This document shows, piece after piece, positions 25,846 to 29,034 of a DNA stretch of 41,310 bases. The position numbers were made by a program, and so were the translations under genes. The stretch spans positions 1 to 41,310 of the forward strand of contig JAIPAE010000007.1 of assembly GCA_021740245.1 (NCBI GenBank). Direction: 5' to 3'. Numbering within the stretch: the first letter of the stretch is position 1; each line of letters opens with the position of its first letter. The notes beneath the pieces were generated by a model that saw only the letters and a program-made list of their open reading frames with translations, made no database searches and was not told the origin of the DNA. This stretch comes from Bacteroidales bacterium (GTDB lineage: Bacteria; Bacteroidota; Bacteroidia; Bacteroidales; PWNQ01).

Positions 25846-26856
25846 TTAGAGCTGTGCTTCAAAATAGCTCAGCAGCTTATCTGTAAAATCGAGATGTGTA
25901 ACAAACCGAACAAGATGCTTGCCAAATGGGACGCAGAGTATGTTCTTCCGGGCCATTTCATTTACAAAATCTGTGGCAGCTTTGTTATGGGCGAGTTCAA
26001 TGATTACAATGTTTGATTCTATTGGATAGATACTTTTCACATAGTCTTTATCTGAAAAGATACGACCGATTTTAGCAGCACGCTGATGGTCTTCTTTTAA
26101 TCGTTCAATGTGATGATCCAGGGCATAAATTCCTGCAGCCGCCAGAAATCCGGCCTGGCGCCAACCCCCGCCCATCACTTTGCGAAAACCTCTTGCACGG
26201 TGGATATCTTCATGACTACCCAGCAATAATGATCCTACAGGACAACCCAAACCTTTGGATAAGCATATGGAAATAGTATCAAAGATTTTTCCATAATCAC
26301 CAGGTGTTTCTAAGGTCTCAACAAGAGCATTAAATAAACGAGCGCCATCCAAATGTAGCTTTAATCCGTGATGGTCACAAATTTCCCTGATCTCAATAAA
26401 ATCATGGAAATTATAAATGCTTCCACCTCCTTTATTCATAGTGTTTTCCACGGAAACAAGGCGGCTAACAGGTTTATGAATATCTTCCGGGTTATTAATG
26501 CTTTCCTTCACCTGTTCTGCTGTTATTCTGCCACGATTACCATCCCGTAGTTTAATGGAGGATAATGCATTTAAGCCGATACCTCCACCTTCATACTGAT
26601 AAATATGGGAATATTTGTCACAGATCACTTCACTTCCCGGCAAACAATGAATGCGAATGGCCAGCTGATTAGTCATGGTGCCGGAAGGGCAAAACAAAGC
26701 AGCTTCCATGCCAAACATAGCTGCTGCTTTTTTTTCCAACTGTTCTATGGTAGGGTCATCCTGGAAAACATCATCTCCTACCTCTGCTTCCATCATGGCT
26801 TCTTTCATGAGAGCTACTGGCTTTGTAACAGTATCACTTCGTAAATCGATAAGCAT
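25846..26856 (-). CDS. ltaE: Low-specificity L-threonine aldolase
   Basis: The protein has 336 residues from the ATG at 26856 (MLIDLRSDTVTKP), the family's normal start; one at 26880 would add eight residues. It is a PLP enzyme of fold type I that splits L-threonine or allo-threonine into glycine and acetaldehyde. The PLP lysine is Lys201 in CLSKGLGCPVGS. His84 in KYSHIYQYEGGG, VENTMNKGGGS and LHLDGARLFNA are the expected family motifs. A promoter box lies 21 bases upstream. Acetaldehyde is also a DeoC product, but no metabolic link is implied by position. Confidence 0.92.
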   Translation of the reverse strand: MLIDLRSDTVTKPVALMKEAMMEAEVGDDVFQDDPTIEQLEKKAAAMFGMEAALFCPSGTMTNQLAIRIHCLPGSEVICDKYSHIYQYEGGGIGLNALSSIKLRDGNRGRITAEQVKESINNPEDIHKPVSRLVSVENTMNKGGGSIYNFHDFIEIREICDHHGLKLHLDGARLFNALVETLETPGDYGKIFDTISICLSKGLGCPVGSLLLGSHEDIHRARGFRKVMGGGWRQAGFLAAAGIYALDHHIERLKEDHQRAAKIGRIFSDKDYVKSIYPIESNIVIIELAHNKAATDFVNEMARKNILCVPFGKHLVRFVTHLDFTDKLLSYFEAQL

Positions 26857-26877
26857 ATTAGTCCTGTTTTTATTGAT

Positions 26878-26885
26878 CAAACCTA
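26878..26885 (-). promoter_or_regulatory. Candidate -7 box for the threonine aldolase
   Basis: The minus strand reads TAGGTTTG (TAnnTTTG), 21 bases before the ATG at 26856. No good TTTG is seen at the -33 distance. Confidence 0.45.
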
Positions 26886-27093
26886 CATAATTTTTTGCGA
26901 AGCTATCTTCTTATTGAATGAATTCTTTTAACTACCTGGACGATTCTCGATTTGACCTTGGATTTATCAAGCTTCATGAATTATTTTTCTAAAAAACATA
27001 CAGCATAATTTATTATATTGACTCAAATAAATTCTATATAAGAGTCTATAATACATGGCTATGGAAATTTGCAACAGTATGTAAAAATTAAAA

Positions 27094-27126
27094 TTTGCAT
27101 TCACAGGTTTTGATGTTGTAATTTAG
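27094..27126 (+). promoter_or_regulatory. Candidate promoter for the kinase-receiver gene
   Basis: TTTG (27094-27097) and TAATTTAG (27119-27126) are 21 bases apart, the second one base from TAnnTTTG. The ATG follows 24 bases later. Confidence 0.5.
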
Positions 27127-27150
27127 TACAAACAAAACATCATTAAAGTT

Positions 27151-28377
27151 ATGCAAAAAGAAAAGTTTACTCCATTGGGACTTACAAAAAACGAGTTGGA
27201 ATTAAAACTATGGAAAACCCACCGTTTCAATAAACTACGTGAAACTTACCTCTCGTATATGCAACAAAACATACGAACTCAGATGAATAACATTAATGGT
27301 TTTTCAAAATTGCTGGCCGAAGATGAAGATAATCATGAAAAACGGGATGCATATTTTGATCAAATCGAAAAGAGTACTGAAAAATTAGACCGTTTGGTAT
27401 CAGAAACGCTTAATATAGCGGTGATGTCACTGGATGAGATCAATGTACAAACACAACCTTGTTTTGTTAATCAACTGATGGATGAATTATATGTTTATTT
27501 TTCACAGCAGAAGAAGGTTTATTCCAAAGCGTATGTTGAATTATATTTAAACCAGGATGTAGATTTTAATGATTTTGCCATCTTAACGGATTGCAGCAGG
27601 CTTCGCCAGATATTTGCACAGCTTGTTGGAAATTGTCTGGCTAATTGTTCAGACGGCGATGAGATAGAATTTGGCTATAAGCTGCTGGATGAAGGTAAAT
27701 CCGGAATTTTGTTTTATGTAGAAGACAATGCAACTTCATATACCAAAGATGATATTGCTCAAATTCTGAAACAACCGGAGCTTTATCTGGAATCGTCCGC
27801 TCACGATCTTAAAATGGAGAGTGTGGATTTCATTGTTTTGAAGACATTAATTGATATGCTGGATGGAGAAGCAGATATAATAACTAAAGATGGAAAAGGT
27901 ATTCGCTATGAATTTGTATTACCCTACAGCCCTTATGAATCTAAAGAAAATACTATGGACAAATCAGTAAAAGAAATTATGGATCTGAAAAAATCTTTTG
28001 AATGGAAAGGCCTGAAAATTATGGTTGCAGAAGATGATGACTCTAACTACACATTGCTTGAAGAAGCTTTATCAAATACCCAGGCTACCATACTGAGGGC
28101 CGAAAATGGTAAAGAAGCAGTTAAGGTTTTTGAAGACAATCCGGATATTAATATTATTTTGATGGATATCAAAATGCCTGTTATGGATGGTCTTGAAGCG
28201 ACAGAAAAAATTAAAAAAATGAACCCGGATGTTCCGGTTATTGCACAAACAGCCTTTGTGGTCGATTTTGATAAAGAAATGGCTATGAAAGCAGGGTGTG
28301 ATGACTATGTGAGTAAACCGATCAATTTTGAAACTTTGTTTAAGATCATGGATTTGTATTTGAAAAATCTGGTGTAG
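27151..28377 (+). CDS. Hybrid histidine-kinase-like protein with degenerate kinase and intact receiver
   Basis: The protein has 408 residues, with no membrane helix, so it is cytoplasmic. Residues 30-95 align with a HisKA helix pair, but the normal MSHEIRTPLN reads MQQNIRTQMN, so the phosphorylated His is Gln39 and the following Glu is Asn40. Residues 140-260 resemble a HATPase domain that keeps the N-box Asn161 and Asp192 of the G1 box but lacks its glycines and the G2 glycine motif. Residues 287-405 form a full receiver: acidic pair Glu294/Asp295, phospho-acceptor Asp339 (LMDIKMPVMDG), Thr367 and Lys389. Phosphoryl transfer from this kinase half is therefore unlikely. It may be a receiver controlled by another kinase, or a scaffold. 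It stands alone between oppositely directed genes. Confidence 0.88.
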   Translation: MQKEKFTPLGLTKNELELKLWKTHRFNKLRETYLSYMQQNIRTQMNNINGFSKLLAEDEDNHEKRDAYFDQIEKSTEKLDRLVSETLNIAVMSLDEINVQTQPCFVNQLMDELYVYFSQQKKVYSKAYVELYLNQDVDFNDFAILTDCSRLRQIFAQLVGNCLANCSDGDEIEFGYKLLDEGKSGILFYVEDNATSYTKDDIAQILKQPELYLESSAHDLKMESVDFIVLKTLIDMLDGEADIITKDGKGIRYEFVLPYSPYESKENTMDKSVKEIMDLKKSFEWKGLKIMVAEDDDSNYTLLEEALSNTQATILRAENGKEAVKVFEDNPDINIILMDIKMPVMDGLEATEKIKKMNPDVPVIAQTAFVVDFDKEMAMKAGCDDYVSKPINFETLFKIMDLYLKNLV

Positions 28378-28482
28378 ACATTTAGGTTCTTATGAAGTGA
28401 CGCCTTTACAAGACTATAAATATCTTATGTGATTGTATATTTTTCACAGCTATGTAATCTTGAATCATAAAAGGGCTCAAGG

Positions 28483-29034
28483 TTAAAAGATATTCTGAAT
28501 TTCTTTTTTAACAGCCACCAGGGCACGGTCGGTGGGTGTATTACCTTTTTGAACTGATAATTCGATTACTTTGGATGCCAGGTCATTTGCTGTGGCATCT
28601 TCTTTTAGCTCGCCAAAGGCTGAATTAACAAGCTTCACCAGTTCTTCTTTTGCATTTTTAACAATTTCCCAGGCCTCAACAGAAATGTAAACCTGCTGAG
28701 AAAGATTATGTTCATATTCATTCCGAATGGCAGTGATCAGTTTAGAACGCATTTGCGCAGCAGTCATATCACTTTCAACAGAACGCAACAATAAAGAATT
28801 AGGCGAGATTCTTTCCAGTAATAATACGATACGCTCATAAGCCTGTAATCTTAAAGGACTTACTATTTTCCGGTTTTCAGTTTTTATCTGAGCCATTACT
28901 TTGCGTTGTTCATCCTGTTGAATTTCACGCAATATGCTTTCATGTTTTTTCATAAAATCACGCATCAGAAAGAAAGCAGTTGCAAATACGATTACTGCTG
29001 GTATGGTTGCTGCTAAAATGATATCCCAGTTCAT
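28483..29034 (-). CDS. Membrane-anchored coiled-coil protein of unknown function
   Basis: The protein has 183 residues. One N-terminal helix (about residues 4-24, WDIILAATIPAVIVFATAFFL) is followed by a charged, probably coiled-coil region (MKKHESILREIQQDEQRKVM) and a helical body containing SPLRLQAYERIVLLLERI. I remember proteins of this layout as conserved and uncharacterised in Bacteroidota, but I cannot name the family with certainty. A near-consensus box (GATATTTG, minus strand, 29063-29056) precedes it. No partner gene is adjacent. Confidence 0.75.
   Translation of the reverse strand: MNWDIILAATIPAVIVFATAFFLMRDFMKKHESILREIQQDEQRKVMAQIKTENRKIVSPLRLQAYERIVLLLERISPNSLLLRSVESDMTAAQMRSKLITAIRNEYEHNLSQQVYISVEAWEIVKNAKEELVKLVNSAFGELKEDATANDLASKVIELSVQKGNTPTDRALVAVKKEIQNIF

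Follow-up and report, generated by a model that had tools for sequence, protein, structure and literature searches.

The window analysed here, a stretch of 41,310 nucleotides from a Bacteroidales bacterium, carries a gene for a 408-residue protein in which a kinase half stripped of its catalytic residues is fused to an intact receiver. From the lost residues and from purifying selection we infer that it is a pseudo-histidine kinase, probably missing one or more kinase functions and still taking part in two-component signalling. It is a sensor-less, doubly dead pseudo-hybrid kinase; pseudo-histidine kinases as such are already known, and this one has so far been found in one genus only. Because the dead kinase is kept in three genomes of that genus, the protein probably acts as a brake or scaffold and not as a kinase. 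We give roughly even chances to the full proposal, a soluble pseudo-histidine kinase whose working receiver makes it a phosphorylation-responsive brake or scaffold. The gene and its parts are as follows.

27151-28377, plus strand: pseudo-hybrid kinase gene (DHp-CA-receiver, sensor-less), an open reading frame with an ATG start encoding 408 aa, with Pfam domains and orthologues 66-69% identical
27235-27435, plus strand: degenerate DHp (HisKA), residues 29-95, from Pfam; 13 of 33 conserved columns kept and 16 lost in the orthologues
27256-27288, plus strand: altered H box YMQQNIRTQMN, residues 36-46, from alignment with the orthologues and 73 hybrid kinases
27589-27930, plus strand: degenerate CA (HATPase_c), residues 147-260, from Pfam; 11 of 39 conserved columns kept and 21 lost
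27766-27831, plus strand: former F box plus G2 box/ATP lid, residues 206-227 (LKQPELYLESSAHDLKMESVDF), from alignment; pLDDT below 50 at residues 210-222
28018-28347, plus strand: intact receiver domain, residues 290-399, Pfam 86.4 bits; 27 of 32 conserved columns kept and 1 lost
28165-28167, plus strand: codon of Asp339, the predicted receiver phosphorylation site; Asp in 97% of the 73 kinases and in the covering orthologues

Pfam assigns three domains to the protein: HisKA (residues 31-90, 28.6 bits against a cut-off of 26.9), HATPase_c (residues 147-259, 27.8 against 26.4) and Response_reg (residues 290-399, 86.4 against 30.2). The first two pass narrowly and the third by a wide margin. These are all the matches at the curated cut-offs, and no sensor, DNA-binding or PAS domain is among them, which agrees with the original prediction of a HisKA-type half fused to a receiver, with neither a sensor nor a DNA-binding domain. 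About 30 residues lie ahead of the HisKA match, so a sensor domain would not fit. No transmembrane stretch is apparent; the highest Kyte-Doolittle mean over 19 residues is 1.07, and a membrane span is therefore not expected.

The catalytic residues were compared with those of 73 hybrid kinases that match the query at a BLAST E value of 1e-15 or better and span residues 45-390, a set taken from the loci at hand after removal of near-duplicates and not a random sample. Columns conserved in at least 70% of this set were counted as conserved, and those neither kept nor lost are mixed. In the H box, Gln39 stands for His, Asn40 (H+1) for Glu and Gln44 (H+5) for Pro, and Ile41, Arg42, Thr43 (H+4), Met45 and Asn46 are kept. 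The column of residue 39 has His in 71 of the 73 kinases, Phe in one (L064) and a gap in one, presumably the frameshifted L050, whose alignment begins past the site; the orthologues have Gln. The original prediction had read Gln for the phospho-accepting His in MQQNIRTQMN, and the comparison confirms it. With HisKA above its cut-off and Gln39 in all three orthologues, the protein is a pseudo-histidine kinase by its sequence. In CpxA, the Pro near the His is described as kinking the helix, a bend linked to the asymmetric form in which the kinase is active (PMC3904827), so the loss of Pro at Gln44 would fit a lost kinase function.

The CA domain has been altered throughout. The N box is lost in every covering orthologue (Asn157 to Gln, Lys164 to Ala or Ser, Phe165 to Asn), as are the F box (Phe206 to Leu, Phe209 to Pro) and the G2 glycines Gly222, Gly224 and Gly226. 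In G1, Gly196 is gone in all covering orthologues and Gly194 in the window and in G002, with Gly194 present in G001. The ATP lid has been swapped residue for residue, with no deletion. The predicted loss of the ATP-lid glycine motifs thus stands, and among the hallmarks of an active hybrid histidine kinase, namely the His and acid of the H box, the N-box Lys and the glycines of G1 and G2, the sole survivor is Gly194 in G001. Asn161 and Asp192 are kept in the orthologues; we take them to be the Mg and adenine contacts of ordinary kinases, so residual nucleotide binding is conceivable, a point that counts against a dead scaffold.

The receiver has the residues of an active PF00072 domain in the covering orthologues: the acidic pair Glu294/Asp295, Asp339, Thr367 and Lys389. 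Three of these, Asp339, Thr367 and Lys389, had been named before, and the acidic pair is added here. The picture drawn at the outset, of a kinase half unable to phosphorylate beside a working receiver, is likewise well supported by the sequence, in which the His, the adjacent acid and the lid are gone and the receiver site is complete; the accompanying idea of a switch or scaffold driven by another kinase is a proposal.

Orthologues occur in both of the other genus genomes examined, with 69% identity in G001 and 66% in G002, so that all three genomes of the family examined, which are the same three, carry the gene. The three copies all come from draft genomes, and that of G002 is spread over two contigs whose ends overlap exactly by 121 bp. 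Gln39, Asn40 and Gln44 are identical in the three genomes. Synonymous codon differences occur among them at Asn40, Ile41, Arg42 and Thr43, and Gln39 (CAA) and Gln44 (CAG) have the same codon in all three. Between the window and the other two copies, pS ranges over the stretches from 0.63 to 1.07, and dS after correction exceeds 1.3 or is infinite, which places synonymous sites near or at saturation; the same substitutions in three genomes are therefore more than chance. The proposal to see whether Gln39 and the loss of the G2 glycines are conserved in homologues is answered positively for this genus, to which the orthologues are confined in the samples searched. No orthologue has His at position 39, and the relatives that do are distant ordinary hybrid kinases.

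The pN values against G001 and G002 are 0.13 and 0.15 for DHp, 0.15 and 0.19-0.21 for CA, and 0.17 and 0.18 for the receiver; in the linker (residues 261-285) pN is 0.47-0.49. Since DHp and CA are close to the receiver, the dead domains, taken whole, are constrained about as strongly as the live one, and selection in the three genus genomes seems to be purifying on both the kinase half and the receiver. The former lid, at 0.21 and 0.26, is looser than the remainder, which counts against a scaffold. Decay or an assembly artefact was rejected, as separate genomes carry an open copy in a syntenic position and the degenerate domains are constrained. A hidden phosphorylatable His was rejected as well: ten alignment columns contain His, and in none of them is it present in all covering orthologues, so the suggestion that a nearby His might be phosphorylated finds no conserved candidate.

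In a tree of 75 rows, the stem of the two full-length orthologues is 1.65 changes per column long, against a median end branch of 0.55, and their tips measure 0.16 and 0.26. The long shared stem and short tips suggest rapid change followed by constraint. The pair is placed among ordinary hybrid kinases with L059 as its neighbour, at an approximate support of 93/81 in a tree whose bootstrap has not settled and in which many forks are open.

By prediction, the dead half retains the DHp-CA fold. AlphaFold2 gave a pLDDT of 52.3 with two sequences, and a mean pLDDT of 77.8 with a pTM of 0.51 with 37 sequences. In the latter model two long DHp helices are predicted, and pLDDT is below 50 at residues 1-11, in the lid (210-222) and in the linker (265-277); given these values and the pTM, the domain arrangement was not used. 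The alignment behind the model is dominated by ordinary kinases and so biases it towards a kinase fold, which counts against the prediction. The best 50 Foldseek matches include the DHp-CA structures DivL 4q20 and RetS 6dk7, the hybrid ShkA 6qrj, and WalK, HK853 and LvrB 8vc9. VIA-align, among the matches listed, covered only the receiver, which was superposed on VicR 8fk2_A with a Z of 22.7 and an rmsd of 1.0 over 120 residues.

Profile searches covered overlapping samples from the class (395 genomes), the order (393) and the phylum (395); neither these nor searches of 60 relatives and of the three family genomes turned up an orthologue outside the genus. The samples were drawn from larger groups, at most four candidates per genome were scored in the class, order and phylum searches, and absence was judged by the score gap and by reading the boxes of the next-best loci. 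In the order, copies and fragments from the genus scored 384.6-831.9 bits and the next best locus 276.2. The two best loci outside the genus in the class, at 246.8 and 241.2 bits, are short hybrid kinases of the ordinary type, their boxes intact. A DNA pattern for QNIRTQMNNI matched one of the 395 phylum genomes, the window's own, and a scan of genome contigs returned two loci, L038, taken as the G001 orthologue, and L039, a receiver-only match of 29%. HisKA domains without the His made up 722 of 76,471 (0.9%) in a survey (PMC12632262). A literature search for pseudo-histidine kinases of Bacteroidota found no paper on such a protein, as judged by title, and among the matches listed for sensor-less hybrid kinases nearly all concerned engineering. 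To our knowledge, few His-less HisKA proteins have a known job.

In the three genus genomes, HisKA matches at E 0.01 or better fill 64 rows that represent 63 domains, one frameshifted domain being in two pieces. Fifty-eight of the domains have His, three have Gln (the family of the window) and two have Glu or Asp. The last two form a second dead hybrid-kinase family in the same genus, at G001 C98:8072-11122 on the minus strand (L151:4073-7123) and G002 C96:6403-9462 on the minus strand (L152:6403-9462). Its members have TPR and PAS domains followed by a DHp with Glu or Asp for His (SEELRIPLNN, SDDLRIFLNN). Inspection by eye adds a membrane-spanning stretch, a degenerate CA and, at the C terminus, what resembles a decayed receiver. 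In Pfam, HATPase_c is recognised in the G001 copy alone and Response_reg in neither copy, and HisKA is below the cut-off in G002. The acid at H+1 is kept and H+4 is Ile, the reverse of the window family. The two copies are 39% identical, and no match at E 1e-30 was seen in G000, a genome 66.6% complete. Elsewhere, L064:1-2688 (plus strand, G837) is a hybrid kinase whose phospho-His position holds Phe (MSFEIRTP) and whose CA boxes and receiver look intact by eye. An ordinary hybrid kinase at G000 C32:13154-13350 (L050, L150) is split by an H-box frameshift (MSHEIRT, with NSLNGIIG in the next frame), and G001 C44 holds an open relative; the frameshift may be a sequencing error or a real break. 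Contigs filed under viruses also encode relatives of hybrid histidine kinases, at 65 loci (L153-L217) of which two share a contig; these may be viral genes or lie in host flanks.

The surroundings of the gene contain these features.

25846-26880, minus strand: open reading frame, the upstream neighbour, divergent
27094-27126, plus strand: putative Bacteroidota-type promoter TTTGCAT-N18-TAATTTAG, found by eye in the upstream sequences of the window and G001; its end lies about 25 bp before the start codon
28483-29034, minus strand: downstream neighbour, convergent, DUF7935 (PF25589, with Pfam run on the window copy only); a similar open reading frame adjoins the gene in all three genomes

The promoter was assigned on what we take to be the Bacteroidota consensus, and the form common to the window and G001 is TTTGCAT-N18-TAnnTTAG; the upstream region of G002 has only a TAACTTAG, lying further upstream. 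A search of the window with the pattern, chosen post hoc, gave one match against 0.02 expected, and a looser pattern without CAT gave five against 2.08. A sigma-70 promoter scan gave five matches against 7.2 expected, and Rfam had no match above the gathering score in 26800-28700. The DUF7935 neighbour faces the pseudo-kinase gene and so is not an operon partner. In all three genomes the convergent DUF7935-type frame is followed by aminotransferase-like and PfkB-like genes, and a PdxH-like gene lies further along in two of them, the contig of the third ending before it; these names come from sequence alone. No operon or signalling partner was seen beside the gene in the three genomes, where the neighbours look metabolic or of the DUF type, and this counts against a scaffold.

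Hpt matches above the Pfam cut-off are present in all three genus genomes. They include three orphan Hpt genes, with 42.5-49.7 bits against a cut-off of 24.6.

G000 C87:467-817, plus strand: orphan Hpt gene
G001 C5:7513-7878, plus strand: orphan Hpt gene
G002 C193:4093-4503, plus strand: orphan Hpt gene

Their products are candidate phosphate donors for Asp339. An Hpt gene is about 3.5 kb from the pseudo-kinase on the same contig in G002, and in G000 and G001 the Hpt genes are on other contigs, with none in the window; linkage in one genome of three is not conserved, which again counts against a scaffold. The orphan Hpt gene adjoins an amidophosphoribosyltransferase-like gene in G000 and G002 and is about 3 kb from one in G001, and in G001 and G002 it lies beside a peroxiredoxin-like gene, both names being taken from sequence.

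The kinase half, with neither the His nor its acidic neighbour nor the ATP lid, lacks what autophosphorylation by the known mechanism requires. In the mechanism that we propose, the DHp halves would pair into a dimer, and Asp339 would be phosphorylated in trans, with an orphan Hpt or one of the cell's active hybrid kinases as the most plausible donor. Phosphorylation of the receiver would then alter the binding of a partner by the dead DHp-CA body, and protein binding would be the only output.

Two alternatives dispute that the protein is a conserved dead kinase at all. A decaying relic of an ordinary hybrid kinase, a pseudogene in progress, would account for the many catalytic residues that are gone; we hold it to be extremely improbable, because identical substitutions persist in three of three genomes while synonymous sites are near or at saturation, the frames are open (in G002 across the overlapping contig ends), and a promoter-like site is common to the window and G001. 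The constraint on DHp and CA, similar to that on the receiver, argues in the same direction and speaks against selection on the receiver alone. Nor is it at all probable that the protein is still an active kinase working through another residue or another His: the kept Asn161 and Asp192 would suit such a kinase, but none of the His columns is conserved, and neither the ATP lid nor the H-box acid nor the N-box Lys is left.

The other alternatives accept the dead kinase and give it a different task. The protein may be kinase-dead and phosphatase-competent (K-P+), its DHp helix dephosphorylating its own receiver or another response regulator and so acting as a phosphate sink that drains an Hpt relay, a reading that we consider unlikely. 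In a report on CrdS and three other HisKA kinases, kinase activity depends on the acid at H+1 and phosphatase activity on Thr or Asn at H+4 (PMC3510030), and the orthologues show the matching pattern, with the kinase positions Gln39 and Asn40 lost and the phosphatase position Thr43 kept. In the same report, CrdS H371A still dephosphorylates its partner, CrdA~P having a half-life of 2.6 min in its presence, 0.7 min with wild-type CrdS and 53.5 min by itself; both E372A and E372Q retain phosphatase competence (PMC3510030). That report also describes, however, that P376A (H+5) lost much of the phosphatase activity, the matching Pro being Gln44 here, and that a His mutant of PleC lost both activities (PMC3510030). 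Thr occupies H+4 in 95% of the 73 ordinary hybrid kinases, so its retention as Thr43 is weak evidence for a phosphatase, and phosphatase activity is called unlikely as a general function of pseudo-histidine kinases by the authors of the survey (PMC12632262). A more specific version, which we rate as rather improbable, is an evolved, dedicated phosphate sink: having shed its sensor and every kinase residue, the protein would take phosphate from the orphan Hpt on its receiver and hydrolyse it with the Thr43 helix, so that a genus-specific protein would set the drain rate of a shared phosphorelay. It is also possible, though doubtful, that the protein forms a heterodimer with an active hybrid kinase encoded in the same genome, and that this partner either phosphorylates the receiver of the pseudo-kinase or changes its own output under the influence of the dead protomer. 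Consistent with this are the two long DHp helices of the model and three hybrid kinases in the genome of the window that are 29-33% identical to the query over nearly its whole length. Heterodimerising kinase pairs are usually closer paralogues, however, and these relatives, at most 33% identical, do not single out a partner. A precedent exists in the pairing of the ChrS pseudokinase with HrrS (PMC9491836), and a heterodimer is one possibility raised by the authors of a study of CCNA_03265, a protein without the His and with the Asp kept (PMC11481889).

The protein would also be of wider use. With 408 soluble residues, a dead kinase, a live receiver and three diverged orthologues, it offers a small, clean system in which to ask what a dead kinase body does: bind, hydrolyse or heterodimerise.

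Several known systems resemble the protein in part. ChpT/Spo0B-type phosphotransferases have a degenerate CA and keep the phospho-accepting His, and the window family, which has no conserved His column, does not belong with them. DivL of Caulobacter has Tyr at the His site and is reported to bind DivK~P without kinase activity (PMC4211667). The two share a conserved replacement of the phospho-accepting residue and the DHp-CA fold, predicted in our case, and DivL works by binding a phosphorylated response regulator, an output that for our protein is a proposal (PMC4211667). DivL as described, however, keeps the N, G1, F and G2 boxes, has PAS domains and has no fused receiver, whereas our protein has lost the lid and carries a receiver; with Gln rather than Tyr or Ala at the His site, the boxes lost and no PAS domain, it falls outside the DivL family as defined in that account (PMC4211667). 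CCNA_03265 (CC3162) of Caulobacter is likewise a hybrid kinase in which the conserved His is absent and the receiver Asp is kept, and its authors suggest that an Hpt may phosphorylate the receiver or a heterodimer may form, unless a nearby His serves (PMC11481889). That protein has a nearby candidate, H151, whereas the window family has no conserved His (PMC11481889). The ChrS variant of Corynebacterium glutamicum, CA-dead and heterodimerising with its paralogue HrrS, is described as a laboratory-evolved frameshift, unlike the conserved natural hybrid studied here (PMC9491836). In LvrB of Leptospira, whose structure 8vc9 was among the Foldseek matches, the receiver controls the attached DHp-CA module; LvrB is presented as a histidine kinase that has an activation mechanism and so is presumably active, unlike our protein (PMC13269768). 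L055 and L056 are short canonical hybrid kinases, frames of 419 and 416 aa from the same class that match our protein in size, have the same DHp-CA-receiver arrangement and no evident sensor; they differ in their intact H, G1 and G2 boxes and form a pair of their own, apart from the window family, in a tree whose deep forks are unsettled.
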